This document shows, piece by piece, positions 2 through 16,081 of a DNA stretch of 16,637 nucleotides (positions within the stretch are counted from its first letter, which is position 1; each line of letters starts with the position of its first letter). The translations under genes and the position numbers were made by a program. Source of the DNA: Propionibacteriaceae bacterium (GTDB lineage: Bacteria; Actinomycetota; Actinomycetes; Propionibacteriales; Propionibacteriaceae). The notes under the pieces are model-generated. The model was not told the DNA's origin. It did not search any database and worked only from the letters and a program-made list of their open reading frames with translations. The DNA lies in the NCBI GenBank assembly GCA_003451975.1, contig DMIX01000366.1, positions 1 to 16,637 on the forward strand. Reading direction: 5' to 3'.

Positions 2-751
2 GACTTCGCCGAGGTCGCTGCCGAAGGCGTGAGGCTGGCCAAGTTCGGCTTCGGTCGCTACCTCGATCCCGCCGACGGCTTCCAGCAGATCCGCGACGCG
101 CAGGCAAACGGAATCATCGTCACCTGCCATTCCGGCGGGGCGTCGATTCCCGGCTCCAAGCCGATCACCACCGATCATCTGCTGCACCTGCACCCCGACG
201 TGTGCGGCCACCTCAACGGCGGCCCCACCTCGCTAGACGAGACCGGGCTGGCCACCATCGTGCGCGACACAGAAATGGCCATTCAGCTGGTGCAGGCCGG
301 CAATCTGCGCAGCTCGATTCTGCTGGTGAAGCTGGCTGCCGAAGCCGATCAACTGCACCGAGTGGTGATCGGCTCCGACACCCCCACCGGCACCGGCACC
401 ATGCCGCTGGGCATCATCAAGACCGTTGCCGAGCTCAGCTCGCTGACCGATCTTGATCCGGCCGTGGCGTGGGCCCTGGCCACCGGCAACTCCACTGCGG
501 TCTATGGGCTGGAGACCGGTGTGGTCGCGGTGGATCGTCCCGCCGATCTGGTCGTGATGGACGCACCGTGGGGCTCGCTAGCCCCCGACGCTCTCAGCGC
601 CCTGACTCGAGGCGATGTGCCCGGCATCTCGGCGGTCCTCATCGACGGCGAGATCAAGGCACTTACCAGCCGCAACACTCCGGCCGCCGCCCGCAGTGCC
701 CGCACTGATCCGCCTCAAGGCCTCCCAGCCGGCTCGGCCCACGTGTGCTGA
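2..751 (+). CDS. Amidohydrolase, enamidase-like (5' truncated)
   Basis: The reading frame is open from base 2 with no start in the window, so 249 C-terminal residues of a protein normally near 380-400 residues are present. Visible features are TCHSGG (a metal-ligand type His), CGHLNGGPT and GSDTPTGTGTMPLGIIKTV, followed by a C-terminal stretch reading DRPADLVVMDAPWGS, which is the usual end of the composite beta-sandwich of the amidohydrolase superfamily. The GHLNGGPT and SDTPTGTG blocks resemble enamidases such as the Eubacterium barkeri enzyme that opens 6-oxo-tetrahydronicotinate. From this I infer hydrolysis of a cyclic amide or enamide, but the substrate is unknown and no other nicotinate-pathway gene is visible. 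The last 25 or so residues are Ala/Pro/Arg-rich and look like an unconserved tail. It is the first visible gene of a co-directional cluster, 34 nt before the DUF1989 gene. Confidence 0.8.
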   Translation, partial: DFAEVAAEGVRLAKFGFGRYLDPADGFQQIRDAQANGIIVTCHSGGASIPGSKPITTDHLLHLHPDVCGHLNGGPTSLDETGLATIVRDTEMAIQLVQAGNLRSSILLVKLAAEADQLHRVVIGSDTPTGTGTMPLGIIKTVAELSSLTDLDPAVAWALATGNSTAVYGLETGVVAVDRPADLVVMDAPWGSLAPDALSALTRGDVPGISAVLIDGEIKALTSRNTPAAARSARTDPPQGLPAGSAHVC

Positions 752-785: not shown

Positions 786-1394
786 ATGACCGCGCTGGTC
801 GAACGAGTACACATTCCCGCTTATGAGGGACGCGGAGTGATGCTGCGCGCTGGCCAATTACTCGACATCGTCGACGTGGAAGGCCAGCAGGTGGCCGACC
901 TGGTGGCCTTCGATTCGACCGACCCCAGCGAGTATCTCAGCACCGGTCATACCGTCTCCTGCAACGCCAAGGTGACGTTGGCTGTGGGCGATCAGGTGTT
1001 CACCAACCACCGCAATCCGGTGTTCACGATCATCGCCGACGACATCGGCAAGCACGACATCGTGGTGCCCTGCTGCGACCCTGAGCGCTACAGCCGTGAC
1101 TACGGCTTGCCCGACCATCCCAGCTGTTTGAACAACCTGCGGCAGGCCCGCGAACTGTTGGGCGTCGATGTCGAGGTGCATGGTGAGAACGCCTGGAATG
1201 TGTTCATGCACAACCGGGTCACCCCCGAGGGAGACGTCGTTACCGATCCGGCGATGAACCCGCCGGGCTCCACGATCACCTTGCGCGCCGAGCGTGACCT
1301 GATCGTGTTGGTCTCGGCGTGTCCACAGGATCTGAGTCCGTGCAACAACTTCAACCCGACCTCCATGGAACTGATCGTTCGAGAGGACGCCTGA
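786..1394 (+). CDS. DUF1989 / urea-carboxylase-associated family protein
   Basis: This 202-residue protein has the full set of DUF1989 signatures: VPCCDPERY (Cys96, Cys97), HPSCLNNL (Cys114), the NVFMHNRV block near 138-145, and LVSACPQDLSPCNNFNPTS (Cys179, Cys186). The conserved cysteines suggest a metal site. Two members of this family (urea-carboxylase-associated proteins 1 and 2) work together as carboxyguanidine deiminase in guanidine breakdown. Here there is only one copy and no urea/guanidine carboxylase or allophanate hydrolase beside it, so that role does not transfer directly. I infer a hydrolytic or deiminating step on a guanidine, amidine or related C-N group of this operon's own substrate. 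The stop overlaps the next start (TGATG). Family assignment is firm; function is open. Confidence 0.88.
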   Translation: MTALVERVHIPAYEGRGVMLRAGQLLDIVDVEGQQVADLVAFDSTDPSEYLSTGHTVSCNAKVTLAVGDQVFTNHRNPVFTIIADDIGKHDIVVPCCDPERYSRDYGLPDHPSCLNNLRQARELLGVDVEVHGENAWNVFMHNRVTPEGDVVTDPAMNPPGSTITLRAERDLIVLVSACPQDLSPCNNFNPTSMELIVREDA

Positions 1395-2428
1395 TGACCG
1401 CCTTGGCACCGGAGACTCGACTACCGGTATCGCAGCGCAAGATACGTCACCCCTTCGAGCTCGATCCGACGATGTGCTTCTACTCCCCTCAGGCCAACCT
1501 GGACGCCTTGAAGCACCCTCGGGTGGCTGCCTGGTTGGAGTTCATCACCACCGGCTGGACGCCCCCGGTGGTGCCGGGAGCCACCACCCGGCTGGCGCTG
1601 TTGCTGCCCTGCACGAAATACAAGCCGTATGTGACCAGCCGGGAGCATCGCGGCATCAACGCGGCGTTGTTGGCCGACGGCTGGCGTCCGGTGAACCGGG
1701 AGCCGCTGCCTCCGGGTTTGAGCGCGATCCTGGAGCCTGAGGAGAGCGAAGACCTGTTGCAGGTGGGTCCTCTGCAACGCGATGGCGTCGTGCTGGATCG
1801 TTTCGTGATCTCGGAGCCGCTAGCACTGGTCCCCTACCCCGAATCGATGTATCACGCCGGTGCCCAAAGCCCAGCCACCTCCTACGACGACCCCGGACTG
1901 TTCGAAAGCCGCGGCACCTCGGTGTCGCCCGAACGCAGCGATTGCAGTGCCCGAATGGCCGCCGACGGTAGTTGGCGCTGGGGCCCCGCCGAGCGGGAGG
2001 CCTACGTGGCGATGCACAACGCGATGTCGTCCCATCTGGTGACCGCATTGGGCCGACTCGCCCCTGACTACGCGGCGATCACGGCATGGGTGTCGCCAGG
2101 CTTGACCCACCGCAGTTTCCTCGCCGACGCCGCCCTGCGCGCTGATGAGGGACTGCCCACCACCCGAAAGGGAAGCGCCGGGGTGTTGCGGCTGCGCGGC
2201 GTGCTGGACGCGCTGCCCGGCGCCGTCCAGGTGCTACCCACCCGCGACCAAATCAGCGCCGCGCAGGATGCGCTTTCCCAAAGGCTGGCCGCCACCGGGC
2301 GTCCCAGTGGAACAGGCTCGGTGCGGTCGGTCTTCGCTCGCGGTGACGGTCACGACACTCCACTGGGGCTGCCGGAACTGCTGGAGCATTTGTTGGCCGC
2401 ACTCAATCAGGCGGCGACTAATGCGTGA
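1394..2428 (+). CDS. ArcS catalytic-core-like (DUF5591-type) protein
   Basis: The protein has 344 residues. Residues 72-85 read PCTKYKPYVTSREH, an exact match to PC-X3-KPY-X2-S-X2-H, the signature of the catalytic core of archaeosine synthase ArcS as I remember it from the literature. The surroundings also fit the DUF5591 fold: HPRVAAWLEFITTGWTPP before it (41-58), then RLALLLPC leading into the motif, and FVISEPLALVPYPE (137-150) with SYDDPG (163-168) after it. In archaea this core joins lysine to the nitrile of preQ0 in tRNA. This protein lacks any recognisable PUA or full tRNA-guanine transglycosylase domain, so a free small-molecule substrate is more likely than tRNA (inference). Residues 175-210 and the C-terminal 110 residues are not recognised. 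GAGAGGA at 1381-1386 supports the ATG at 1394, which overlaps the previous stop. The 3' end overlaps the aldehyde dehydrogenase gene by 8 nt. Confidence 0.75.
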   Translation: MTALAPETRLPVSQRKIRHPFELDPTMCFYSPQANLDALKHPRVAAWLEFITTGWTPPVVPGATTRLALLLPCTKYKPYVTSREHRGINAALLADGWRPVNREPLPPGLSAILEPEESEDLLQVGPLQRDGVVLDRFVISEPLALVPYPESMYHAGAQSPATSYDDPGLFESRGTSVSPERSDCSARMAADGSWRWGPAEREAYVAMHNAMSSHLVTALGRLAPDYAAITAWVSPGLTHRSFLADAALRADEGLPTTRKGSAGVLRLRGVLDALPGAVQVLPTRDQISAAQDALSQRLAATGRPSGTGSVRSVFARGDGHDTPLGLPELLEHLLAALNQAATNA

Positions 2429-3809
2429 GATCACCGCCATTGCCGATGCCCGCAGACTCGGCGAGGTCGTCGAGTTGGGCACTGAGGCGGTTCCCGGCCT
2501 GGTTGCCCACGCACAGTCCGCGTTCACCCAGTGGGGTTGCAGCGCGCCGCATGAGCGCGCCGACGCACTGCAGGCCGGGGCGTCCCAACTCGCCGCGCTG
2601 AGCGCTCAGTTGGCACCGATTCACGCCGCCGAGTCCGGCAAGGTGATCACCCAGGCGCGCGGCGAATTGGCCGGTGCGGTACGCATGGTGTCGCGCAATG
2701 CCGAGCTGTGCCGATATGCCGCCGCCGAGGTGGCACCGACTGGGGCATTCCCCGGTGGTGAGAACGATTTGACCATCGTCGAGCGGGTACCCCTGGGCGT
2801 CGTGGTCGCAGTCATCCCTTTCAACTTCCCGGTGGAGTTGGCCATGGAGAAGGCGGCGGCTGCGCTGGCTGCCGGCAACACCGTGATCGTCAAATTGCCG
2901 CCGCAGAACCCCTTGGCCACTCGGGCTGCGGTCGATGCCGTTGCCGCTGGCCTTCCCGAGGGCGCCCTGCAAGCGGTCTACGGCGACAACGAGTTCGCCG
3001 CCGCCCTGTGCGCTGCTCCCGGTGTGGCCGCGGTATCCCTGACCGGCAGCGTGGGTGCCGGTGTGGCGGTAGCCACAGCGACCGCACGGCTGCTGCGTCC
3101 GCTGCATCTGGAGTTGGGTGGCAACGGCGCGGCGATCGTGCTCCCCGATGCCGATCTGGATTATGTGGTCAGTGAGTCGCTACGCGGTCGCCTGCTGATG
3201 AACGGCCAGGCCTGCGCAGCCACCAAACGCATCATCGCCCACCGATCCATCGCCGCCGAGCTCACCGATCGCTTCGCCGCTGCACTGTCCTCGGTCAGCC
3301 CGAGCGATCCGCTGCTGGAGACGGCGCGTCTGGGGCCACTGATCGATGCTCGCGCCGCCGCCCGCGTGCAGGCGCAGGTAGAGGCCACCATCGCAGCCGG
3401 CGCCACCCGGGTGTTGGGTGGTGCTGCCGATGGCCCCTGGTTCGCCCCCACTGTGCTGAGCGCAGTCCCGGCCAGCGCGCCGATCATTGGTGATGACGAG
3501 GTCTTCGGGCCGGTGTTTCCGATCGTCGAGGTCGATTCCGCCGAAGAAGCCCTCGTCGTAGCCAACGCTACGTCGCTGCGGCTCACCGCCGCGGTGTTCA
3601 GCAACGATTGGCCCGCCGCCATGCAATTGGCTCAACGCCTCGACTTCGGTGGCGTCGTGGTCAACGGCACCAACAACTACCGCCCACCCATCGTGCCGTT
3701 CGGCGGTGTGGAGTTGGCAGGCGCCGGGCGCGAAGGCCTCGGCTACACCATGGATGAGCTGTCCCGAACGCGTTTCATCGCCCTGCGTCGCCTGCGCGGA
3801 GGCCAGTGA
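2421..3809 (+). CDS. Aldehyde dehydrogenase family protein
   Basis: This 462-residue NAD(P)-dependent aldehyde dehydrogenase has the expected length and all key residues: FNFP with the oxyanion-hole Asn135, VKLP with Lys158, the LTGSVGAG nucleotide loop (207-214), LELGG with general base Glu231, catalytic Cys265 in NGQACAATKR, and EVFGP (360-364) near the C-terminal domain. It should oxidise an aldehyde to an acid. The PFGGVELAGAGREG end motif (426-439) is typical of the NAD-dependent family. The ATG at 2421 starts inside the upstream gene (8-nt overlap), with AGGCGG at 2409-2414 as a weak ribosome site. The aldehyde could come from the neighbouring aminotransferase or aldolase-fold enzyme (inference). 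The exact substrate class cannot be assigned. Confidence 0.93.
   Translation: MREITAIADARRLGEVVELGTEAVPGLVAHAQSAFTQWGCSAPHERADALQAGASQLAALSAQLAPIHAAESGKVITQARGELAGAVRMVSRNAELCRYAAAEVAPTGAFPGGENDLTIVERVPLGVVVAVIPFNFPVELAMEKAAAALAAGNTVIVKLPPQNPLATRAAVDAVAAGLPEGALQAVYGDNEFAAALCAAPGVAAVSLTGSVGAGVAVATATARLLRPLHLELGGNGAAIVLPDADLDYVVSESLRGRLLMNGQACAATKRIIAHRSIAAELTDRFAAALSSVSPSDPLLETARLGPLIDARAAARVQAQVEATIAAGATRVLGGAADGPWFAPTVLSAVPASAPIIGDDEVFGPVFPIVEVDSAEEALVVANATSLRLTAAVFSNDWPAAMQLAQRLDFGGVVVNGTNNYRPPIVPFGGVELAGAGREGLGYTMDELSRTRFIALRRLRGGQ
3798..3802 (+). promoter_or_regulatory. Ribosome binding site of the aldolase-fold gene
   Basis: GGAGG lies 6 nt before the ATG at 3809 and only 3 nt before an in-frame GTG at 3806, so the ATG is the better start. 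Confidence 0.7.
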
Positions 3810-4471
3810 TGCCTGCGCTCGATGAGCTACGAGCCCAGGTGGCCGCGACCGCCCGCCACCTAGCCAGGGCCGGCCAGTTGGAGGCGTTCGGTCATGTTTC
3901 GGCACGGTCCGGGGAGGTGATCGCCATCACCACGACCCGTCCGCTGTTCGCCTGCACGAGCGCTGATGTGGTCGTCATCAACGCTGACGGGACGCCCGTG
4001 GACCCCGCAGCCACTGATTTGCCGTTGGAACGGTTCTTGCACCTGGCCATCTACTCAGCGCGTCCCGAGGTGGCCGCCATCTGCCGCGGGCACGGGCGCT
4101 GGTATGTGGCCTGGGGGGTCAATGACGACCCTGTCCCGGTGCGCCACGGTCTCGGGTTGCTGGCCGGCGAACGGGTGGGGGTGCATTGTGATCCCCTCCT
4201 GATCAGCACTCCAGCTCGTGCGACGGCCGCAGCGTCCGCGCTGGGCCAGGCTCACTGCCTGATCCTGCGCGGCAACGGGGCTGTGGCCACCGGGGCATCC
4301 CTGCCCGAGGCAGCCGCCCGCCTCTACGCCCTCGACGAGCGCTGCCGGGTGGCCCTCGACGCCCCGGGGTCGGGGCCCGAGGAAGAAGACCTGTGGCAAC
4401 GACGCGCCGTCGATACGGCCGTCGAAATGGCCCGCCACACGGCCTGGTTCACCGCCAGGTTCGCCGATTGA
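3809..4471 (+). CDS. Class II aldolase/adducin-fold protein with altered metal site
   Basis: This 220-residue protein has the length and layout of the class II aldolase/adducin family: FGHVSAR (27-33), LPLERFLHLAIY (71-82, keeping the usual catalytic/metal-proximal Glu74), a RGHGRW segment (93-98) and LILRGNGAVATG (151-162). In classical members such as fuculose-phosphate aldolase, zinc is held by His-x-His and by a His in an NHG motif. Here the first His is Arg93, His95 is kept, and the third is Asn156. The enzyme therefore probably does not bind zinc in the classical way. Some decarboxylases share this fold, so decarboxylation or a retro-aldol step are both possible. The TGATG junction with the ALDH gene indicates translational coupling. 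Confidence 0.8.
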   Translation: MPALDELRAQVAATARHLARAGQLEAFGHVSARSGEVIAITTTRPLFACTSADVVVINADGTPVDPAATDLPLERFLHLAIYSARPEVAAICRGHGRWYVAWGVNDDPVPVRHGLGLLAGERVGVHCDPLLISTPARATAAASALGQAHCLILRGNGAVATGASLPEAAARLYALDERCRVALDAPGSGPEEEDLWQRRAVDTAVEMARHTAWFTARFAD

Positions 4472-4490: not shown

Positions 4491-5747
4491 ATGTTGAGCC
4501 CGTTGGCACCAACGCCCACCATGACTGAACAGGAGGTGGAGTCCTACCGCGATCGGTTCGCGGCCAAGCTCTCCCAGACCGTTCCCGGACGCAAGGAAAT
4601 CGTCGTCGCTGAGGCCCGCGGCTGCACCCTGAAGACTGCCGAGGGCCGGTTGTATCTCGACATGACCTCCGGGATCGCGGTGGCCAATGTCGGGCATTGC
4701 CATCCGGCGGTGGTAGAGGCGATTCAGCAGCAGGCCGCCCGTTACTGCCATGTCAACGTCTATGGCCGCTTCGCGGTGCCCGAGCAGGTGGAGATCGTGG
4801 AGCGGATCACCTCGGTGGCTGGTCCAGGCCTGGACGTGGCCTACCTCACCAGCACCGGAACTGAAGCCACCGAGGCCGCCTTGAAGCTGGCCCGCAAGTA
4901 CACCGGACGGCCCAAGTTCGTCGCCTTCACCCGCTCATTCCACGGCCGCACTTTCGGTTCGCTGTCGGTCAGTTGGCGCGAGGAGTGGCGCAAGCCGTTC
5001 GAGCCACTGCTGCCCGGGGTCACCTTCGTGGACTACAACGATCTGGAGGCGGCCGCCGCGGCGATCGATGACCAGACTGCCGCGGTGATCGTGGAACCGA
5101 TCCAAGGCGAAGGCGGCATTCGCATCCCTGATGCCGACTTCCTGCCGGGCCTGCGCGGACTGTGTGACGAAGCTGGCGCGCTGCTGATTGTCGACGAAGT
5201 GCAAGGCGGCATGGGCCGCTCTGGCAAATGGTTCGCCCACCAACACTTCGACGTCAACCCCGACATCATCACCATGGCCAAGGCGCTGGGCGGCGGACTG
5301 CCGCTGGGCGCAGTAATTTCGCGGGCCGACATCTTCGCCACCTTCGTCGATCCGCCGCTGTCGCATCTGACCACGATGGGTGGCAACCCGGTGGCCTGCG
5401 CTGCAGGCATCGCCGCCTTCGACACCATCCTCAACGAAGGTCTGCTGGAGCACGCCACCAACACCGGGGCCTACCTGCTGGAGCGGCTGGAGTCGGTGCG
5501 CTCACAGTTCCCCGATCTGGTGATCGATGTGCGCGGCAAAGGTCTGTGGTGCGCCTTCGAGCTGAGCGTCGATGCCCAACCGGTTGCCAACGCGCTGCAG
5601 GATCGCGGCGTGCTGGTGGGCTCGGTACTCAACTCCTCGGGCACTATTCGAGTCACTCCGCCGCTGGTGATCAGCCCGGCCGAGATCGACGTGTTCATCG
5701 GCACGCTGCGCACCGTCCTGGCCGGCATGGAAGCCGCCACCCTATGA
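4491..5747 (+). CDS. Class III PLP-dependent aminotransferase
   Basis: The 418-residue protein is a complete fold-type I omega-aminotransferase. It shows LYLDMTSGIAVANVGHCHP (54-72), the phosphate-binding STGTEATEAALKLA (121-134), VEPIQGEGG (201-209), cofactor Asp235 in IVDEVQGGMGR, the Schiff-base Lys264 in TMAKALGGGLPLGA, and TTMGGNPVACAAG (294-306). The pattern resembles 4-aminobutyrate and acetylornithine aminotransferases, so the donor or acceptor is probably an omega-amino compound, but the specificity cannot be read from sequence. It lies 19 nt after the aldolase-fold gene, with AGAGAGGA just upstream of the ATG at 4491. A second in-frame ATG at 4521 would drop ten residues. Together with the ALDH it could convert a primary amine through an aldehyde to an acid, or the reverse order in synthesis (inference). 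Confidence 0.92.
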   Translation: MLSPLAPTPTMTEQEVESYRDRFAAKLSQTVPGRKEIVVAEARGCTLKTAEGRLYLDMTSGIAVANVGHCHPAVVEAIQQQAARYCHVNVYGRFAVPEQVEIVERITSVAGPGLDVAYLTSTGTEATEAALKLARKYTGRPKFVAFTRSFHGRTFGSLSVSWREEWRKPFEPLLPGVTFVDYNDLEAAAAAIDDQTAAVIVEPIQGEGGIRIPDADFLPGLRGLCDEAGALLIVDEVQGGMGRSGKWFAHQHFDVNPDIITMAKALGGGLPLGAVISRADIFATFVDPPLSHLTTMGGNPVACAAGIAAFDTILNEGLLEHATNTGAYLLERLESVRSQFPDLVIDVRGKGLWCAFELSVDAQPVANALQDRGVLVGSVLNSSGTIRVTPPLVISPAEIDVFIGTLRTVLAGMEAATL

Positions 5748-7186
5748 CCTGGATGCAACGCACCGAGGTGCTGGTCAGAGGCGCCTTCGTGATTACCATG
5801 GCTGGGTGCCGCGATGCCCGCAGCCACACGGCCCCGGCTGCTACCCACGGTGTCATCGCCGACGGTGCGGTGCACCTGCGCGACGGTGAGATCATCAATG
5901 TCGGCAGCTTCGCCGAACTGGCTGCCGCCGCACCCGAGGTGCAGGTGGTGGGCGACGGCACCGGAGTGGTCATTCCCGGGCTGGTGAACACCCATACTCA
6001 CCTGTCTGAAGCCCTGGCAACCGGCATGGGCTCTGAGCTCAGTTTGTTCGAGTGGGGCACCCGCATCATCGGCCCGCTGTCGGCAGCACTCAGTGCGGAA
6101 CTGGCTCGCGAGGGCACCGCACTGCGGGCTGTCGAGATGCTTCTCAGCGGGGTCACCTGCGTCAACGACATGTTCGTCCACACCGCCGAAGGCAGCCTGG
6201 CCAGCCTGGGTGTGGTGGACGGGTTGGAGGCCGCCGGGCTGCGCGGCATCGTCTCCTACGGTGCCGAAGACATCACCGGGTTGGACGCCACCGGCGATCC
6301 GCAACGGGTGCTGGAGGTCGCCGCGGTTGTAGCCGAGCAGTATGCCCTGGCCCAGCGCTGCGAATCCAGCGAGTTGGTGAGCTTCCGTTGGGGCATCGGC
6401 ACGCTGTTGGGACAAAGCGATGAGCTGCTGAGCGAGGCGGTGAGCCAGTGCTCGTCCCACGGCTGGGGTGTGCACACCCACCTGGCCGAAGTTCGAGAAG
6501 AACTGGTCCTGGCCAATGCCCGCTGGGGACGGCGCACCATCGCCCACGCCGAAAACATCGGTCTACTGGATCAGCCGCTGGTCGCCGGCCACGCCATTTG
6601 GATCTCCGAGGCCGAGATCGACACCTTGGCCACTCATCAGGTGGGGGTGGCGCACAATCCGGTGGCCAATATGATTCTGGGCTCCGGTGTCTGCCCGGTC
6701 ACCGCCCTGCGCCACCGCGGGGTGGCGGTGGGGATCGGTACCGACGGCGCAGCATCCAATGACTCCCAGGACATGTTGCAGGCGGTGAAGAGCGCAGCTT
6801 TGCTGCAAAAGGTCAACGCCCGCGATCCGTGGGTGATGGACGCCTATGACGCCTTGGAGATGGCAACCATCGGTGGCGCGCGTGCGCTCGGATTGGACGA
6901 CCGGATCGGTAGCTTGGAGGTGGGCAAGCGGGCCGATGTGGTGCTGCTGCAGGATTCGGTCGACATCGCCGTACTGCACGACCCGGTCTCCCAGGTGGTT
7001 TATGGCGCATCGCCGCGCGCGGTGGCCGCGGTGTTCGTGGATGGCCGCCAGGTGGTGGCCGATCACCGCTGCCGCAGCATTGAGGAGGCCGAGCAGGTGG
7101 CGCGATGCCGTCCACTGGCGGCCGCACTCGCGGCCGAATCGGGGTTGGCCCGCGATGGTTTCTCGCTGTACCGGGGCCAGCTATGA
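5744..7186 (+). CDS. Amidohydrolase of the TrzA/MtaD/guanine-deaminase type
   Basis: The 480-residue protein has the complete metal site of subtype III amidohydrolases: NTHTH (His84, His86), HTHLAE (His244, His246, Glu249), AGHAIW (His283), VAHNPVANM (His304) and GTDGAASND (Asp334). Relatives deaminate or dechlorinate N-heterocycles: guanine, S-adenosylhomocysteine or methylthioadenosine, triazines, isoxanthopterin. Deamination of a heterocyclic amine is the likeliest role. A start at 5744 gives the normal N-terminal beta-sandwich (EVLVRGAFVITM) and an ATGA overlap with the aminotransferase stop, so it is preferred over the long upstream in-frame extension, which only mirrors the aminotransferase gene. 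It is the second amidohydrolase of the cluster and belongs to a different subfamily from the first. Confidence 0.9.
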   Translation: MTWMQRTEVLVRGAFVITMAGCRDARSHTAPAATHGVIADGAVHLRDGEIINVGSFAELAAAAPEVQVVGDGTGVVIPGLVNTHTHLSEALATGMGSELSLFEWGTRIIGPLSAALSAELAREGTALRAVEMLLSGVTCVNDMFVHTAEGSLASLGVVDGLEAAGLRGIVSYGAEDITGLDATGDPQRVLEVAAVVAEQYALAQRCESSELVSFRWGIGTLLGQSDELLSEAVSQCSSHGWGVHTHLAEVREELVLANARWGRRTIAHAENIGLLDQPLVAGHAIWISEAEIDTLATHQVGVAHNPVANMILGSGVCPVTALRHRGVAVGIGTDGAASNDSQDMLQAVKSAALLQKVNARDPWVMDAYDALEMATIGGARALGLDDRIGSLEVGKRADVVLLQDSVDIAVLHDPVSQVVYGASPRAVAAVFVDGRQVVADHRCRSIEEAEQVARCRPLAAALAAESGLARDGFSLYRGQL

Positions 7187-8712
7187 AGGTTGCCGTGATC
7201 GGTGCCGGCCATCAAGGCCTGGTGGGTGCTCTCATCCTGGCAAGGGCGGGCGCTGAGGTCACCGTCTTCGAGCAGGCGACGCAGGCCGGTGGCTGCGTGT
7301 GGAGCGAGCAGCGTGGCCAGGTGCTGGTGGAGCGCGGCGCCTGGGAACACGGCGGCATCGTTGAGCTGGCCGAAAGCCTCGGACTGGAGGCCTACGGCTT
7401 GCACTATCGGGAACATTCCCTGCTCAGCGCCACCCGATTCGGCGACGGTGAGCAGCGTCTGTTCGCCACCGACCTGGAGCAGACTGTCGCCGGCCTGGGT
7501 GCGGATGCCGACCGCTATCGACAGTTCGCTGAGTTGGCCGGCTCACTGTTCGACATGCTGGACGCCTTCGCCACTCCGCCCACACTGACCGAGGTGGCTG
7601 CCACCCTGAGCCCCCTGCGCGGTGGCGACCGGCTGTTTCGCACCCTGCTGCGTCCCGCCCAGGTCGTCATCGCCGAGGCTGTGCGCGATCCCCATACTCG
7701 GGCCGCTTTGGAACTGTACGCCGCTCACGGCCAGATTCCGCCGTGGGCACCGGGCAGCGGAATGTTCGGATTGCTGCTTCCTGCCGGTCACGGCGGGCGC
7801 GCGGCGCGTCCGGTGGGAGGTTCGGGGGCACTCACTGCGGCGCTGGTGGGGGCACTCGAAGCCGCGGGCGGACGGCTACTGCTGGGTCAGGCGGTGACCC
7901 AGATCCGCCCGCAGCCACAAGGCGCGGTGGTGTGTACCGCTGAGGATCAACTGCGGGTCGATCGGGTGCTGTCGTCGATCGATGTACGCCGGCTCGCGCG
8001 GCTGGTGCCCGAACTGCCCGCAGAGCTGGCCGGTGAGCTGGGCGCGTTGCACTCCGGACACTTCAATATCAGCGAACTCACCGTCTCGTTGAGCTATCGC
8101 ATCGCCCCGCTGCTGCCACTGGATGCCGATCGCGACGCAGTTTGGTTCACCCAGAAGGCCCCCAGCGATCTGGGTGTCGGCCTGGCTGAGGTATTGGCCG
8201 GACAACTCCCCTCTCGCCCCTCAGCAATGGTCGGCCAGGTAGACCAAGGCCCAGGCACAGGTGGTGCGGTGTGGCTGTCCTCGGTGGTTCCACTGCAGCG
8301 CAACGACGGCGCGTGGAGCACTACGACCGAGCAGGAAGCCGGAACCCGCGTGGTGGATGCGGTCAGTGAGATCCTCGACTGCGATCTGTGGCAGGGGTTG
8401 GACGAGATCGTGGTCTCCGGGCCGCTCACCTGGGGGGCGCGGCTGGCCTCTGATGGCAATCCCAATCACCTCGACCTGAGTATTGATCAGCTATTGGGCT
8501 GGCGACCTGGCGGTCTGGATCGCTGGCAACAGCGTTACCCCTGGCTGTCGTGGTGCGGGGCGGGAGTGCATCCGGGCGGAGGCCTGTCGGGCGCTTCCGG
8601 TGTTGCCGCAGCCGAGGCGATCCTCGCCGGCAACCACGCGCTGCGAAGGACCAACGAATTGGTGGGCCTGTGGCAGGCATTCGGGGCCTACCGCCAACTG
8701 CGAAGGAAGTGA
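7183..8712 (+). CDS. FAD-dependent oxidoreductase, phytoene-desaturase-like
   Basis: This 509-residue flavoprotein begins with the dinucleotide-binding motif VIGAGHQGLVGALILARAG (GxGxxG at 7-12) followed by the ribose-binding FE at the end of strand two. Near the C terminus it has GAGVHPGGGLSGASGVAAA, the conserved FAD-closing motif of the phytoene desaturase / PYROXD2 group. No membrane segment or carotenoid gene is visible nearby, so carotenoid desaturation is unlikely. A two-electron oxidation or desaturation of the operon's small molecule is inferred. The ATG at 7183 overlaps the preceding stop (ATGA), which fixes this start against the longer in-frame extension. Confidence 0.87.
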   Translation: MKVAVIGAGHQGLVGALILARAGAEVTVFEQATQAGGCVWSEQRGQVLVERGAWEHGGIVELAESLGLEAYGLHYREHSLLSATRFGDGEQRLFATDLEQTVAGLGADADRYRQFAELAGSLFDMLDAFATPPTLTEVAATLSPLRGGDRLFRTLLRPAQVVIAEAVRDPHTRAALELYAAHGQIPPWAPGSGMFGLLLPAGHGGRAARPVGGSGALTAALVGALEAAGGRLLLGQAVTQIRPQPQGAVVCTAEDQLRVDRVLSSIDVRRLARLVPELPAELAGELGALHSGHFNISELTVSLSYRIAPLLPLDADRDAVWFTQKAPSDLGVGLAEVLAGQLPSRPSAMVGQVDQGPGTGGAVWLSSVVPLQRNDGAWSTTTEQEAGTRVVDAVSEILDCDLWQGLDEIVVSGPLTWGARLASDGNPNHLDLSIDQLLGWRPGGLDRWQQRYPWLSWCGAGVHPGGGLSGASGVAAAEAILAGNHALRRTNELVGLWQAFGAYRQLRRK

Positions 8713-8717
8713 GGGCC

Positions 8718-9674
8718 ATGGACGATTTCGCACTGATGAATCTGATGACCGGCTACCAGCAGGCAGCTGTCATCGCGGCCGGGGTGCGACTGGGCATCTT
8801 CGATGCGCTCGCGAAGACCCCTCGCACAGCCGCAGAACTGGCCAACCAGTTGGGCACAGCCGAGGCACCCACCCGGGTACTGCTGGCCGCTCTGGAGCGC
8901 CTGGGTTTAGCCACGGACGGGCCCAGGATCTGCCTTACCGACGCCGGTGCTCGCCTCGTCGGTGACGAGGCGTTGGCATTGCTGAGCCTGAAAGAAGCAT
9001 TCTTCGCCAGGGTGTGGAACGACTTGGACCAGGTGGTACGCACCGGCGCTCCGAAGCTGACCAGTTGGACCCAGCGGTGGGCCGATGACCCCCAGCAGTG
9101 TCGCCTGTTCTTGCGTGCCCTGCGGGTGATCGCCGAGGTGAGCGGACCGGACATGATCGCCACGGGGGTCTTCACCAGTGGTGCGAGAGTGCTCGACGCC
9201 GGCGGCGGGTTCGGCTCCTATGCCGCCACTTTGGCCCAGGCCGGTTGCGCGGTGACCCTTGCCGAACTGCCTGTCGTGGCACCCTGGGCGAGTGACGAAG
9301 TGGCCCGGCTGACGACAGGTTCAGGCAGTGTGCAGGTTGTCGCTGAGGACCTGCTCGCGCCGGCCTCGATCGGGGATTTCGAAGCCGGGCTGGTCTCCCA
9401 TGTGGTGCATGACCTCGATGATGCAGATGCGGTAGCGCTACTGGCCGGGGTGCGTGCTCGACTTCGTCCGGGTGCCCCGGTAGTGGTTTTCGAGTTGGCC
9501 GGCGACTCCCCCGGCTTCTTCGGGCCGAGTTTCGATCTGATGATGATGGTCGAGGGGCCCGGCCGTGCCCGCAGCGCCTCAGAAGTCACCACCCTGTTGG
9601 AGGCGTCAGGTTGGACTCAGGTGCGAGAGTTGCCCGCGCAACGCCCACATCTGCTCATCCAGGCGGTGGCGTGA
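8718..9674 (+). CDS. SAM-dependent O-methyltransferase (acetylserotonin-OMT-like)
   Basis: The 318-residue protein has the two-part layout of Methyltransf_2 enzymes. A winged-helix dimerisation domain comes first (about 1-85, with GVRLGIFDALA and PTRVLLAALERLGL). The Rossmann methyltransferase domain follows: the SAM-binding motif VLDAGGGFGSYAATLA at 158-173 and SHVVHDLDD (227-235), whose His231 sits where the catalytic His usually is. The C-terminal FDLMMMVEGPGRARSASEV is typical. Such enzymes methylate hydroxyl groups of aromatic or secondary-metabolite substrates. It starts 5 nt after the flavoprotein gene, with a purine-rich ribosome site (AAGGAAGTGAGGG, 8703-8715). Its presence tilts the operon towards biosynthesis or tailoring rather than pure catabolism (inference). 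Confidence 0.88.
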   Translation: MDDFALMNLMTGYQQAAVIAAGVRLGIFDALAKTPRTAAELANQLGTAEAPTRVLLAALERLGLATDGPRICLTDAGARLVGDEALALLSLKEAFFARVWNDLDQVVRTGAPKLTSWTQRWADDPQQCRLFLRALRVIAEVSGPDMIATGVFTSGARVLDAGGGFGSYAATLAQAGCAVTLAELPVVAPWASDEVARLTTGSGSVQVVAEDLLAPASIGDFEAGLVSHVVHDLDDADAVALLAGVRARLRPGAPVVVFELAGDSPGFFGPSFDLMMMVEGPGRARSASEVTTLLEASGWTQVRELPAQRPHLLIQAVA

Positions 9675-10603
9675 TGGCCGCCGCGCCCGGGGTTGATGAG
9701 GTGTACTCGGCGTTGTTGAGCCGCCTGCAGACGGGGCTGTATCCCACTGGTTCTCGACTGCCGAGTTGTCGGCAACTGGCAGATACCTTGGGCTCCAACC
9801 CCTCCACGATCGATCGCGCGCTGCATCGCTTGGCCGATCAGGGGCTGATACGCACCGTGGCCCGCCAGGGCAGTTTTGTTGCCGCGACCAGCCTGATTCG
9901 CAGCGCGTCGACTCAGGAACTCGCCGGGGAGTTCGAAGACCTGGTGCGGCGGGCTCGCCGCGCAGGCATCAGCGCGACCGACATTCGCACGATGTGGGAG
10001 GAGGGACTTCATCGGGTTACGCGAAGCCCCCGGGTAGCTCTGGTGGAGTGCAATCCGCGCGACCTGGAAACGTTGGGAGCCCGGCTCCAAGCGATCAGCG
10101 GGCTGGAGATCACCGGAGTGCTGATCGACGGGGTGAGCGCCCTGCCCTGTTTGAACTCCAGCTTTGATGTGATCATCACTCCCTTCTTCCACCTCAACGA
10201 GGTGACCCAGTTGGTCGACGATCCCGACAAGCTCGTGGCGGTGAATGTGACCGCCTCACCGAAAGTGCTGCGCCGCATCGCGATGCTCGACCCTCGCCAC
10301 TGCGTGGCGGTGGCCGCCCCCACTGAGCGAGGCCTGCAACAGGTGGGGGGCCTGGTGCGTCAGATCTTCGGTGGCCCGGTGCTCGACTTCTTCATCGGAC
10401 GCGACGATCCCGACGCACTGTCCGAAGTTGGAGCCGTCGTCATGAGTAATGCCAGCGATGCGCTGCCACCGTTGCCCAGTGACGCTGCGGTGATCGCGGT
10501 GGAGTGGGTCATCGAGGACGCCTTTGGGGGCTTCTTGATGACCCAGGTGGAGCGGCTGCTCTCCAGCGAGGTGGACGAGAAGCCGAATCCGGCGGACTCT
10601 TGA
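9674..10603 (+). CDS. GntR-family regulator with a periplasmic-binding-protein-like effector domain
   Basis: This 309-residue regulator has an N-terminal winged helix (about 8-72) with the GntR pattern: LQTGLYPTGSRLPSCRQLADTLG... then STIDRALHRLADQGLIRTVARQGSFV. A linker helix (80-112) follows. From about 118 to 290 there is an alternating beta/alpha domain (VALVECNPRD, EITGVLIDG, FDVIITPFFHLNEV, LVAVNVTASPKVL) that looks like a small-molecule-binding fold, distinct from the common FadR (FCD) and HutC (UTRA) effector domains. I infer that it senses a substrate or product of the operon and controls it. Its start overlaps the methyltransferase stop (TGATG), so it is coupled to the operon it probably regulates. 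The operator is presumably upstream of the first gene, outside the window. Confidence 0.85.
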   Translation: MAAAPGVDEVYSALLSRLQTGLYPTGSRLPSCRQLADTLGSNPSTIDRALHRLADQGLIRTVARQGSFVAATSLIRSASTQELAGEFEDLVRRARRAGISATDIRTMWEEGLHRVTRSPRVALVECNPRDLETLGARLQAISGLEITGVLIDGVSALPCLNSSFDVIITPFFHLNEVTQLVDDPDKLVAVNVTASPKVLRRIAMLDPRHCVAVAAPTERGLQQVGGLVRQIFGGPVLDFFIGRDDPDALSEVGAVVMSNASDALPPLPSDAAVIAVEWVIEDAFGGFLMTQVERLLSSEVDEKPNPADS

Positions 10604-11869: not shown

Positions 11870-12184
11870 TCAGGGCAACAATCGTGAGAGGAGCGTTCCC
11901 ACCATGATCAATGGCTGGATCATCATCACCACGATGAGGCCCGCCACTGCCAACCCAACGTAGATCATCACTCGGATGAATCGCACGATGACGTGGATGT
12001 CGTCGGAAGCTCGCTGGGTCAGCCCGAATGAGTAGTAGGGACTCGCGAAACCCCGCAGCGACCCAACGAGCTGATCGGTGGCGGTCTGGATCGAAGGCGG
12101 ATTCCAGGCACTTCGCTGTGGTGAATTGGCTTGGCGCGGTGGCGCCCACGCGGCACCGGGTGGATAGGGAGTCGGCTCAGGCAT
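11870..12184 (-). CDS. Small proline-rich single-helix membrane protein
   Basis: This 104-residue protein is not one I recognise. Residues 1-31 are rich in Pro, Ala and aromatic residues (MPEPTPYPPGAAW...). Residues 32-68 are amphipathic, and one strongly hydrophobic segment lies at about 73-97 (MIYVGLAVAGLIVVMMIQPLI), ending close to the C terminus. Short actinobacterial proteins with a Pro-rich cytoplasmic head and one or two helices are common and mostly uncharacterised. The minus-strand start at 12184 has a weak ribosome site (AAGGGGG). The gene is divergent from the hydroxyacid dehydrogenase, with about 98 nt between the starts. Confidence 0.65.
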   Translation of the reverse strand: MPEPTPYPPGAAWAPPRQANSPQRSAWNPPSIQTATDQLVGSLRGFASPYYSFGLTQRASDDIHVIVRFIRVMIYVGLAVAGLIVVMMIQPLIMVGTLLSRLLP

Positions 12185-12282
12185 CGGTGTCCCCCTTCAC
12201 GTCGGCAGCAATCGACGACCACTGGCACGGGCCTCAAGGGTGGGGCATTCATCACGCAGCCTTCGGCTGGCAGACTCTTTCC

Positions 12283-13230
12283 ATGCTCACCGTCACCGTG
12301 CCCGATACCGATCTGCTCCAACGGCTGGCTGATCTCAGCGACCGAGTGGAGCTGGTGGTGTGGGATCTGGTCGACCCGCTGCCGGCCGACATCGCCGAAC
12401 GGGTCGAACTGGTTCAGATCGGCCACTACTGGGTGCAGCCGCAACGCTGGCGCCGTCTGTTTGAACTCCCCCGGCTTCGCTATGTGCAGCTTCCCTCGGC
12501 TGGCTATGAACACGCCCTGCCGCTGACACCGGCCTACGCCACGGTATGCAACGGTCGAGGTATCCATTCCGCTGGCACCGCCGAGTTAGCCATTGGACTG
12601 CTGCTGGCGTCCCAGCGGGGCTTGGTCGAGGCGATCGACGCGCAGCGTGCCGAACAGTGGCACAGCCCTGAACTCAGCTCGCTCGCCGATCGCCGAGTGC
12701 TGGTGATCGGTGCCGGCTCGGTCGCACAGGCAGTGGCCGCCCGGCTGCGGCCCTTCGAAGTCGATCTCACCATGGTCGGACGCAGCGCCCGCGACGGCGT
12801 CCACGCGGTCGCGGAGCTGCCGGAACTGTTGCGCTCAGCCGAGATCGTGGTGGTGACGGTGCCCTACTCCGAACAGACTCATCACCTGCTGGATGCGCGG
12901 GCATTGGCGGTACTCCCGGACGGAGCGCTAGTGGTGAATGTGGCCCGAGGTCTGGTCGTCGACACCGAAGCACTGCTGGCCGAACTACGCAGCGGACGGC
13001 TGCGAGCCGCCCTCGACGTGACCGATCCGGAGCCGCTGCCGACCGGACACGGACTGTGGCACGCACCCCACACCATCATCACCGCTCATCAGGGCGCCAA
13101 CACCACCGCGACCTATCCGAGGGTGGCCGCACTGCTGCGTCGTCAACTGGAGCATGTCCTCGCCGGTGAGCCCTTGGACAATGTGGTGGGACCCGGTGAA
13201 GGCGGCGCAGGCGCAACTCAGCGTCCGTAG
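12283..13230 (+). CDS. D-isomer-specific 2-hydroxyacid dehydrogenase
   Basis: Starting at the ATG at 12283 gives 315 residues, the family's normal size; the longer upstream frame has no family similarity and overlaps the divergent gene. The NAD-binding motif is VLVIGAGSVAQAVAARL (139-155, GxGxxA rather than the usual GxGxxG). The catalytic set is Arg222 in NVARG, Glu250 in DVTDPEPLP and His269 in ITAHQG. It should reduce a 2-keto acid to the D-2-hydroxy acid, or the reverse, with NAD(P)H in the cytoplasm. There is no Shine-Dalgarno sequence directly before the ATG (CTCTTTCC), so a leaderless or very weakly initiated mRNA is possible. Its stop lies inside the convergent deacetylase gene. Confidence 0.9.
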   Translation: MLTVTVPDTDLLQRLADLSDRVELVVWDLVDPLPADIAERVELVQIGHYWVQPQRWRRLFELPRLRYVQLPSAGYEHALPLTPAYATVCNGRGIHSAGTAELAIGLLLASQRGLVEAIDAQRAEQWHSPELSSLADRRVLVIGAGSVAQAVAARLRPFEVDLTMVGRSARDGVHAVAELPELLRSAEIVVVTVPYSEQTHHLLDARALAVLPDGALVVNVARGLVVDTEALLAELRSGRLRAALDVTDPEPLPTGHGLWHAPHTIITAHQGANTTATYPRVAALLRRQLEHVLAGEPLDNVVGPGEGGAGATQRP

Positions 13231-14702
13231 CGGTACATCACGCCCGGCTGCGGGTTGCCCAGTAGGTCGGTCACCGTCACGAAGGTGTAGCCCTTGGCCT
13301 GCAGCCCGGCGATGATGTCGGGCACGGCAGCCACGCTGGTCTTGTGAATGTCGTGCAGCAGAATGATCGATCCCCGACGGGTATCACGCAGCGCGGCTTT
13401 CACCGTCTTCGGGGTGCTGCGGGTCTTCCAGTCCAGGGTGTCGACATTCCAGAGCACAACGGCCAATCCGGCCTTTCGTGCTTCTTTCCTTACGGTGCTG
13501 TTCACCGCGCCGTAGGGCGGACGCAGCAGCGTCGGCGTCACACCGGTCTCGTTGCGGATGATGTCGACAGTGGAGGTGATCTCCTTGTCGATCTGAATCG
13601 GGCTGAGCCGCGTCAGATCGCGGTGGCTCCAGGTATGGACGCCGATTTCGTGGCCGGCCTTGGCCACGGCGCGCGCAGTGGACGGATAGGTGTCGACCTG
13701 CTGACCGAGCATGAAGAAGGTCGCGGGCACATTGCCGGCCTTGAGGTATCCCAGGAGCTGCTTGGTGTAGGCGCCGGGGCCGTCGTCGAAGGTGATCGCC
13801 ACGCACTTGAGTTTCTTACAGTTCACCTTCTTGGCGGTCGGCTGCGGCGTCACGACCGGCACCGGGCTGGGCGATGAGGCCGAGGCGGTGGTGGTCGGGT
13901 CTACCGGATCCATCTCGGCGGCCTGTGCCCGTTTCCCGGCCGCGGTGAGCATCGGCGCCACAGTCGTGGCCGGAATGGTCATCGTCACCCGGTCTTCGAC
14001 ACAGGCGGCGACTTGGCACTCGTCGAATCCGACGATGAGGTCACCGTTTCCGGTGAAGGCCACCAGCGTCGCAGCGCCGTAGGGGTTTGATCCCAGCGGC
14101 GACAAGTCGAGCGTGGTCACCATGGTGCGCCGGCTGGGCTCCAGGCCGACGAGCGCGGTGCTGACCGCGTAGCTGTTCACCAAATCGGCGGGTTGATACA
14201 CCGTGTCGGTGCTCGGGTCGAACCACATCGAATGCCACAGGTCGCTGGCGTCCGCCCCGGCGAATTGATAGCCGTCGGCCACGATGCCGATCATCGAAGG
14301 CGAGGCTGCCAGCAGATGCCAATCCAGGTTCAACTCCGGTGAGGGTGCCTCCGGGTCGGTGGGCTGAGGGTAATCCTGTTCGAACTGCTTGATAGTGGAC
14401 AGGTAGTAGCCGCGGATTGCTGCGTCGATCTTCGGTTTTCCGAACTCCGGCCACGTGGCAAAGATGCGCTGCTGGTAGCCGCTTTGGGAGTGGACCGTCA
14501 CCGGCAAATGTTCGAGCAGATCAGGATCCAACACCTGCGGCACATCACCGTTTCCGGTCAACGCGGTTTCCGCCGCCGTCGTGACCGACGGTGTTGGTGA
14601 GGGCGGTTCCGGCGTCGAAGAGGACATCGGACTTTGGGTAGCGCAAGCACTCAGTAGCAGCGCTACCGGCACAATGGCGGCGCGCAACCAGGCTCGTCTC
14701 AC
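13218..14702 (-). CDS. Lipoprotein polysaccharide deacetylase (NodB domain) with an RsiV-like N-terminal domain
   Basis: The 494-residue protein starts with GTG. A signal peptide ends in a lipobox, LLSAC, with lipidated Cys20. A Ser/Thr/Pro linker (22-45) and a 60-260 region follow that reads like the DUF3298/RsiV-type domain (VTVHSQSGYQQRIFATWP, IRGYYLSTIKQFE, TDTVYQPADLV). After a second Pro/Ser/Thr linker (268-292) comes a complete NodB deacetylase domain: TFDDGPG (Asp306, Asp307), HTWSHRDL (His356, His360), RPPYG (394-398), WNVDTLDW (418-425) and LLHD (His450). It should remove N- or O-acetyl groups from cell-wall polysaccharide or peptidoglycan outside the membrane. The 3' end overlaps the dehydrogenase gene by 13 bp. 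Confidence 0.92.
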   Translation of the reverse strand: MRRAWLRAAIVPVALLLSACATQSPMSSSTPEPPSPTPSVTTAAETALTGNGDVPQVLDPDLLEHLPVTVHSQSGYQQRIFATWPEFGKPKIDAAIRGYYLSTIKQFEQDYPQPTDPEAPSPELNLDWHLLAASPSMIGIVADGYQFAGADASDLWHSMWFDPSTDTVYQPADLVNSYAVSTALVGLEPSRRTMVTTLDLSPLGSNPYGAATLVAFTGNGDLIVGFDECQVAACVEDRVTMTIPATTVAPMLTAAGKRAQAAEMDPVDPTTTASASSPSPVPVVTPQPTAKKVNCKKLKCVAITFDDGPGAYTKQLLGYLKAGNVPATFFMLGQQVDTYPSTARAVAKAGHEIGVHTWSHRDLTRLSPIQIDKEITSTVDIIRNETGVTPTLLRPPYGAVNSTVRKEARKAGLAVVLWNVDTLDWKTRSTPKTVKAALRDTRRGSIILLHDIHKTSVAAVPDIIAGLQAKGYTFVTVTDLLGNPQPGVMYRYGR

Positions 14703-14773: not shown

Positions 14774-16081
14774 TCACTGCTTAGCAAGTTCACTCAACCG
14801 CACCGCCACCGCATCCAGCCAGCCGCCGACATTGCGTCGAGCTTCTTCGGTGTCGGGGTAGCGGGCGCGCAGGTGCAGCCCGGCATCCGCGGCGATGAAC
14901 CACACCATGACCCCGTCGTCACGCACCACCGCCGACACATACTGCACTTCGGCGTCGAATCCCAACTCCGGAAGCCGACGCGTGTCCAGCCAGGAGATGG
15001 CGAACATACCCGGAGCGACAGGCATCCCGCCGTAGGGTTCCACGATGGGCGCCAGTGGGTAGGAACCCAACGCGATAGCCTCCCGAACCGCCTGTCGGCA
15101 GGCCGTCGGATCAGCGTCGGCGGACTCCAACACAGCGTTGGTGATGTACCACCCCACGGAGTTGCGCCAGCGATCCTCGTCGCGGCTGTGGACCGGGAGC
15201 ACTGCCCGCAGCGGCACTCCGGCCAATTCGGCCGTCACTTCAGTCATCACCGACACCGCCAACGGCAGCAGCCGCACACCGTGGGCGTGCGCCTGGGCGG
15301 CCAAGGCTGCGATGCCGTCGGCGTCGACCAAGTCGCGGACTTCGACCACCGGGTCGGGTGCGTCGGTGAGATCACCGAGGGGCAGCGGGAAGGTGGGCAT
15401 CACTCCCCCTTCGGCTGCCAGAATCTCACGCCAGCGCTGGTGTATGTGCGCCGGCGCCGGCGGTTTGGCGGCCAGCAGGGCGCTGTGCTCGGCGAAGCTG
15501 GCCGCCGGCGGCAGGTCTGCGCAGGGCTGGCGTCCGACGGCAGCATCAGCCAGGCCGATGTTCAGATCACGCAGGATCACCAGGAAGGACCACATGTCCA
15601 CGTGGCAGTGATCGGCTCCCAGGATCAGCAGCGGACGCTGATCGACGCCATCGGGTTCGGGAAGCACCACCGCGAGCCGGTGGGACGGCTGCTGGAAGGG
15701 GGCACAGGCCGCGTCGAATAGTTCACGCAGCACGACTCGCGGGTCCTGCTCGGGCTCGAGGTGGTGCTCGACCCACTCCCCGTCAGTGAGGGTGATGTCG
15801 TTGAGATGAATACCGTCACGGTCCTGGCGGAAGCCGGTATGCAGGCTGCCGTGGCGGCGCTGCACCGCCCGCCAGGCCTGCGCCAGGCCATCCAGGGAGG
15901 TGCCTTCCGGGAGCCGGGCCGCCACCGCCATCCACGATCCGGGGCGCTGCCCGAGGCCGACATGGCGTCCTTGGTCGAACGACACGACGAGTTCATCACC
16001 GGGATCACCGACCGAGCTCACCGCAAAACTAAGCAGTCTGCCTGGTGGGAGCGCCATCTGTGTGACGTTCGTCAGCCGCAT
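14774..16081 (-). CDS. Stand-alone condensation-domain-like acyltransferase
   Basis: The 435-residue protein has the chloramphenicol-acetyltransferase-like fold seen in condensation domains, PapA and wax-ester synthases. RRHGSLHTGF (75-84) matches the first core block. ADHCHVDMWSF (156-166) is the active-site block HHxxxD, with the second, catalytic His158 and Asp162 kept but the first His replaced by Asp157. SVGWYITNAVL (308-318) matches the VG-F block. It is a single domain without carrier protein or adenylation partner, so a CoA- or carrier-dependent acyl transfer forming an ester or amide is inferred. Acceptor unknown. It lies 71 nt upstream of the deacetylase gene on the same strand and may be co-transcribed with it. 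It is divergent from an alpha/beta hydrolase. Confidence 0.8.
   Translation of the reverse strand: MRLTNVTQMALPPGRLLSFAVSSVGDPGDELVVSFDQGRHVGLGQRPGSWMAVAARLPEGTSLDGLAQAWRAVQRRHGSLHTGFRQDRDGIHLNDITLTDGEWVEHHLEPEQDPRVVLRELFDAACAPFQQPSHRLAVVLPEPDGVDQRPLLILGADHCHVDMWSFLVILRDLNIGLADAAVGRQPCADLPPAASFAEHSALLAAKPPAPAHIHQRWREILAAEGGVMPTFPLPLGDLTDAPDPVVEVRDLVDADGIAALAAQAHAHGVRLLPLAVSVMTEVTAELAGVPLRAVLPVHSRDEDRWRNSVGWYITNAVLESADADPTACRQAVREAIALGSYPLAPIVEPYGGMPVAPGMFAISWLDTRRLPELGFDAEVQYVSAVVRDDGVMVWFIAADAGLHLRARYPDTEEARRNVGGWLDAVAVRLSELAKQ

Follow-up and report, generated by a model that had tools for sequence, protein, structure and literature searches.

What does the core domain of ArcS do when its gene sits among those of small-molecule enzymes in a bacterial operon? 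The question is raised by a 16,637-nucleotide stretch of DNA from a Propionibacteriaceae bacterium (hereafter the window), which makes up all of contig DMIX01000366.1 (C221) in a 74.74% complete draft genome of 2.72 Mb, and which encodes a 344-residue protein with the ArcS core, DUF5591 (PF17884). The parts of the ArcS literature drawn on here concern archaeal tRNA (PMC11298593, PMC5485725) and phage DNA modification (PMC6884629), and no paper title on a bacterial DUF5591 gene cluster was found among the titles and abstract starts listed, with most subscription journals outside the scope of the search. A first-pass annotation of the window had pointed out the ArcS core signature and proposed that the core was recruited to act on a free nitrile, amidine or deazapurine-like metabolite. 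In this study, the signature and its position in a bacterial metabolic operon were confirmed; that the stand-alone protein acts on a free purine-like, possibly 7-deazapurine-like, heterocycle in a catabolic operon is the reading we favour, at a rough probability of 0.55.

The signature PC-X3-KPY-X2-S-X2-H is exact at every fixed position (P72, C73, K77, P78, Y79, S82 and H85) in the translation of 1394-2428 (+), where PCTKYKPYVTSREH forms residues 72-85. ALLLPC leads into the motif, VISEPLALVPYPE lies downstream of PCTKYKPYVTSREH, and ISEPLALVPYPE follows at residues 139-150; the second motif, VISEPLALVPY, corresponds to residues 138-148 and YDD to residues 164-166. A protein search returned 478 relatives at E <= 0.001 among 7,997 candidates scored, of which 120 were listed; by hand count, 66 of these 120 carried a precomputed PF17884 label, and the window protein carried none. 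All seven fixed residues were invariant in a family alignment of 32 sequences (the window protein, 29 listed relatives and two loci), as were E84, S140, E141, P142, V146, P147, Y148, Y164, D165, D166, W196, E200, H208, T238 and H239, and the motif was also present in loci L023-L025. A six-frame scan of the window and 26 loci, including an archaeal-virus DUF5591 protein (L026), gave 27 matches to the motif over 853,860 residues, always within a DUF5591 gene, with the window, L001 and L020 representing one gene and L021/L023 and L022/L024 representing two genes counted twice. The confinement of the matches to DUF5591 genes and the invariance among the relatives led us to reject a chance motif.

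Profile searches of the window protein alone and of its family gave different outcomes. By itself, the window protein matched PF17884 with 20.7 bits (E 3.9e-4, residues 65-92) against a curated cut-off of 26, and the NCBIfam ArcS model NF040592 with 19.6 bits (E 2.9e-4), far under the cut-off of 440. PF17884 was nevertheless matched by all 32 aligned sequences at E <= 0.01, and the relatives in L024 and L025 exceeded the cut-off with 30.7 and 34.5 bits. When the bacterial family was compared with a profile of 22 aligned archaeal ArcS proteins, taken from a collection with 105 listed, the DUF5591 domain was matched with a probability of 98.0-98.4% (E 2e-13, 122 aligned columns), while the hhalign controls were negative (0.22% for the TGT part of ArcS, 0.17% for its C-terminal part and 0.07-0.31% for six column shuffles). 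Masking the motif reduced the match to a weak one (25%, E 7.5e-4), and therefore much of the homology signal rests on the motif region. The profile alignment also takes in the S-x-P...V-P segment and, further on, the YD and W...E pairs. Judged by these comparisons, the bacterial family is a true homologue of the ArcS DUF5591 core, as the first-pass annotation had supposed.

ArcS (NF040592) is composed of TGT, DUF5591, PF22176 and PUA parts. In a Pfam scan of the window protein at E <= 0.1, DUF5591 was the sole match, and neither TGT (PF01702) nor a PUA domain was found, in agreement with the earlier annotation; the window protein is therefore the ArcS core alone and not ArcS. Full ArcS membership was rejected since the TGT and PUA parts were found neither by Pfam nor by hhalign. 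The bacterial protein further differs from ArcS by long insertions between the motifs and by E141 and Y148, which align with the ArcS-invariant S301 and R307 (P0130 numbering).

Predicted models of the bacterial and ArcS-type proteins have a similar order of secondary structure, with ten core elements in the same order. Helix H166-182 of the ArcS-type model belongs to its C-terminal, PUA-containing part and is not a counterpart. In the predicted bacterial model, Cys73 is placed at the end of a beta-strand, and Lys77, Tyr79, Ser82 and His85 in the ensuing loop and helix. Searching PDB sequences with the family profile gave AF0587 (PDB 2q07) as the sole standout, which shares the LLLPCTARKPYLTSRTHRAL segment with the bacterial family (E 3.9e-4; next row 0.44); 2q07 aligns with the ArcS-type model P0218 including the PUA-containing C-terminal part, which the bacterial protein lacks. 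VIA-align with the bacterial model did not include 2q07 among the 50 matches listed.

The DUF5591 gene lies in a run of same-strand genes, listed below, where assignments are by profile matches unless otherwise given:

2-751 (+), amidohydrolase (Pfam Amidohydro_1, 26.1 bits, cut-off 25), open frame running to the contig edge
786-1394 (+), DUF1989 protein, a relative of UAAP2 and of the TMAO demethylase domain
1394-2428 (+), DUF5591 (ArcS-core) protein, 344 residues (translation, Pfam, family alignment and profile-profile alignment)
2418-3809 (+), aldehyde dehydrogenase, its start overlapping the end of the DUF5591 gene
3806-4471 (+), class II aldolase/decarboxylase-type protein
4491-5747 (+), class III aminotransferase, nearest to acetylornithine and putrescine transaminases
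5747-7186 (+), amidohydrolase of the Atz / SAH-deaminase / 8-oxoguanine-deaminase type
7186-8712 (+), FAD-dependent amine-oxidase/CrtO-like oxidoreductase
8718-9674 (+), SAM-dependent O-methyltransferase-type protein
9674-10603 (+), GntR-type regulator, the last gene of the operon

The DUF1989 stop and the DUF5591 start share TGATG, the DUF5591, aldehyde dehydrogenase and aldolase genes overlap in turn, and the remaining junctions up to 10603 overlap or are separated by at most 19 bases. Because its frame reaches the contig edge and its orthologues have about 398 residues, the 5' end of the first amidohydrolase is probably missing; likewise, since the window spans a whole contig of a draft genome, the operon is probably truncated on its 5' side. 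Downstream of the operon, a 2-hydroxyacid dehydrogenase (12124-13227, +), a polysaccharide-deacetylase-family protein (13221-14702, -) and a protein with a weak, sub-cut-off Condensation-domain match of 16.9 bits (14777-16081, -) were observed.

A total of 22 loci were considered in the neighbourhood survey, among which 18 were from named genomes, two were from the phylum survey, one was from a Rhizobium plasmid and one was the window; L001, L020, L021 and L022 were left out as shorter cuts of genes already included, and the viral locus L026 and L027-L036 lie outside this count. Neighbours were called by translated searches (E <= 1e-12, query coverage of 40% or more), several stretches being short (L004, L005), and the DUF5591 proteins of the 22 loci fall into 16 groups at 80% identity and 13 at 70%. 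The Atz-type amidohydrolase was present in 19 loci, the class III aminotransferase in 15, a second amidohydrolase and DUF1989 in 14 each, the CrtO-like FAD enzyme and the O-methyltransferase in 13 each, the class II aldolase in 12, a hydantoinase and an isochorismatase-fold protein in 10 each, the aldehyde dehydrogenase in nine, nitrilase-fold and cytidine-deaminase-like proteins in seven each and GntR in five. The hydantoinases are nearest to dihydropyrimidinase/allantoinase models and the isochorismatase-fold proteins to biuret hydrolase and RutB, in both cases below the curated cut-offs. DUF1989 served as the chance control: with 24 copies in 81.8 Mb (21 carrier genomes), 0.15 loci would be expected to have one within 20 kb, against the 14 observed. 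The neighbours that recur across the loci are a deaminase-type amidohydrolase, DUF1989, enzymes of the allantoinase/hydantoinase, biuret/RutB and nitrilase-fold types, and importers. The operon of the DUF5591 gene, with its tight junctions, is conserved among Actinomycetota, and relatives occur in Alphaproteobacteria.

Further neighbours were restricted to certain loci. HpaB-type oxygenase and AtzE-type amidase relatives were found in L018, L019 and L025, PuuE-like proteins in L019, L025 and L002, and a 4,5-dihydroxyphthalate-decarboxylase-like protein in L018, L019, L025 and L014. For the binding proteins, a solved ABC binding protein is a weak relative (E 0.0025), except in L023, where the protein is NMT1/THI5-like; L024 has a PnrA-type importer together with a histone-deacetylase-family hydrolase. 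Such histone-deacetylase-family hydrolases recur beside the DUF5591 gene (L005, L006, L017, L024 and L025), and AA_synth (PF06684; L011:7555-8133, +, and orthologues) occurs in 10 of the 22 loci together with the genes for the hydantoinase and the isochorismatase-fold protein.

Linkage to ring-opening and deaminating enzymes, importers or purine-pathway genes was observed, with a full purine cluster in one alphaproteobacterial locus only. In that locus (L031, genome G1067), the DUF5591 gene (9386-10423, -) is located inside a purine-catabolism cluster, with genes for a Rieske protein, an amidohydrolase, an alpha/beta hydrolase, a xanthine permease, ureidoglycolate lyase, allantoicase and PuuE-UraD before it on the same strand, followed by HIUase and urate oxidase on the opposite strand. 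On its other side are molybdenum hydroxylase genes (two subunits scanned) and a ring-opening hydrolase of the AtzD/TrzD type, which scored 547.6 bits against a cut-off of 360, as well as two further hydrolases, of the RutB/biuret and ArgE/DapE types, and a dihydroorotase/allantoinase-type protein. The adjoining L034 encodes an NMT1-type binding protein, three VanA-type Rieske oxygenases, a creatininase-family protein, an amidase, an isochorismatase-fold protein and a second ureidoglycolate-lyase-family protein; together, L031 and L034 (G1067:C3:738900-778700) form an N-heterocycle catabolism island of about 40 kb that includes the urate pathway. The neighbours share classes with bacterial purine and pyrimidine ring catabolism (urate oxidase, HIUase, PuuE, allantoicase and AtzD-/RutB-type hydrolases), although no standard pathway of this kind is known to include a DUF5591 protein. 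The purine route described in the part of PMC4016543 drawn on here is a different one.

The family is rare. The protein was found in 3 of 396 genomes of the phylum and 2 of 394 of the class, and in 3 of 385 genomes of the class to which the genome of L018 belongs, the centre genome being counted each time; the second match of the 394-genome survey shares its contig sequence with L004, and L028 repeats the gene of L018. A plasmid search gave two records, a clear relative from Rhizobium (42%) and another at E 0.5, and a phage search gave six records, none covering 80% of the query and the best at E 0.01. A stand-alone DUF5591 protein of 185 residues, annotated as hypothetical, is encoded by Sulfolobus virus STSV2 (STSV2_16, L026:2423-2980, 71.6 bits in Pfam), where a thymidylate synthase gene lies three genes upstream, and may serve viral DNA modification.

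The gene context, with its amidohydrolases, DUF1989, allantoinase/hydantoinase-type enzymes, NMT1- and PnrA-type importers in some loci and one purine cluster, makes catabolism of a nucleobase-like heterocycle quite likely as the function of the operon. In the mechanism that we propose, an importer would take up the heterocycle, and the Atz-type deaminase and other amidohydrolases would strip or open its amidine, urea and lactam parts. The DUF5591 protein would use Cys73 for the attack on an electrophilic carbon, be it nitrile, amidine or imine-like, in the ring system or its side chain; the adduct would then be resolved by an amine or by water. A Cys-dependent reaction of this type, suggested by the motif residues, has somewhat less than an even chance. 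The thioimide route is described, in the part of PMC5485725 drawn on here, for QueF and QueF-L; for ArcS it is not established by the literature examined. That the ring is a 7-deazapurine is doubtful, the suggestion coming from the known ArcS substrate. The proposal of the first-pass annotation is thus partly supported: the context favours a free nucleobase-like metabolite and does not extend to the use of a nitrile, amidine, deazapurine or lysine.

Several observations weigh against the favoured reading. The window protein alone scores under the Pfam cut-off, the predicted bacterial model contains elements with no ArcS-type counterpart, among them two C-terminal helices, and a Foldseek search of this model against PDB gave no match at E <= 0.001, with 2q07 not listed. 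Seven of the 22 loci collapse into one group at 80% identity, and importer genes are found in only part of the 22 (ABC ATPase 11, binding protein 10, permease 9). Atz-type genes number 1 to 19 per carrier genome (E <= 1e-20) and form a weaker control than DUF1989, and some neighbour matches are distant, at 26-33% identity (such as the Atz-type ones in L018, L019, L024 and L025), and may be general paralogues. In L032 (G1145), which is likewise alphaproteobacterial, the DUF5591 gene adjoins cytidine-deaminase-like and TIM-barrel genes without a clear cluster. Finally, the O-methyltransferase and the CrtO-like oxidoreductase fit no obvious purine pathway and could mean biosynthesis.

A more specific form of the catabolic reading, which we consider rather unlikely, is that these operons constitute the first dedicated degradation pathway for 7-deazapurines (preQ0, preQ1, queuine or archaeosine-type bases). 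In such a pathway, the 7-deazaguanine side chain would be recognised by the DUF5591 protein in the manner of ArcS. The aminotransferase and aldehyde dehydrogenase would convert an aminomethyl to a carboxyl group, and a decarboxylase-type enzyme, either class II aldolase-like or 4,5-dihydroxyphthalate-decarboxylase-like, would remove it. The Atz-type enzyme would deaminate the ring, and oxidases with hydantoinase/AtzD-type hydrolases would open both rings.

Among the competing explanations, a biosynthetic operon for a small nitrogen-rich natural product, in which the DUF5591 protein would join an amine to a nitrile or activated carbon to give an amidine before oxidation and O-methylation, is unlikely. 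The O-methyltransferase and CrtO-like genes, each present in 13 of the 22 loci, an aminotransferase akin to acetylornithine and putrescine enzymes that handle terminal amines, and the amidine-forming activity of ArcS itself, according to the parts of PMC11298593 and PMC5485725 drawn on here, argue for it; the associated importers, the hydantoinase/allantoinase, biuret/RutB-type and PuuE-type neighbours and the purine-degradation cluster of L031 argue against it. Little probability is given to a nucleoside or base N-glycosidase, in which a uracil-DNA-glycosylase-like fold would be reused to free the base from an imported nucleoside.

A genuine ArcS-type reaction in bacteria, with lysine or ammonia added to preQ0 or a preQ0 nucleotide, is very unlikely. 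The fully conserved motif is in its favour, and in the part of PMC11298593 drawn on here, Thermococcus ArcS accepts the preQ0 nucleoside and 5'-phosphate without tRNA and use of ammonia, asparagine or glutamine is reported for the M. jannaschii enzyme; in the same part, however, Thermococcus ArcS is inactive on the free base and requires RaSEA, and no radical-SAM protein was found among the ten window proteins scanned with Pfam. The replacement of S301 and R307 also tells against the literal ArcS reaction. Moreover, among the 21 carrier genomes, some of which are drafts, only three have a queC above the cut-off, and five more have short matches below it; the 74.74% complete draft genome of the window gave no match. 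Endogenous preQ0 is therefore unlikely as the usual substrate, and endogenous archaeosine or queuosine synthesis was rejected as the usual role. TGT was present in 15 of the 21 carriers, yet 18 lacked queC above the cut-off, a pattern that would be compatible with queuine salvage or with retention of TGT for another reason.

Modification of bacterial tRNA or DNA, in the manner of archaeal ArcS or its phage homologues, is extremely improbable, as the shared domain, those phage homologues (PMC6884629, in part) and the TGT of most carriers are set against a window protein without detected PUA and TGT domains, a metabolic neighbourhood in most of the 22 loci and six carriers with no TGT match. The phage homologues (e.g. 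that of Vibrio phage nt-1) are likewise ArcS-type proteins outside archaeal tRNA modification, and according to the same part of PMC6884629 they are found together with DpdA genes and genes of preQ0 synthesis, which serve to modify DNA with 7-deazaguanine, whereas no such gene was found among the scanned neighbours of bacterial DUF5591.

If the favoured reading, action on a free heterocycle in a catabolic operon, is true, a conserved bacterial branch would extend ArcS chemistry to free metabolites, and the bacterial DUF5591 protein would provide a small, RNA-independent model enzyme for the ArcS core. It would also point to an as yet unassigned bacterial breakdown route for purine-like or deazapurine-like rings, in which part of an RNA-modification enzyme has seemingly been reused for feeding on nitrogen-rich rings.
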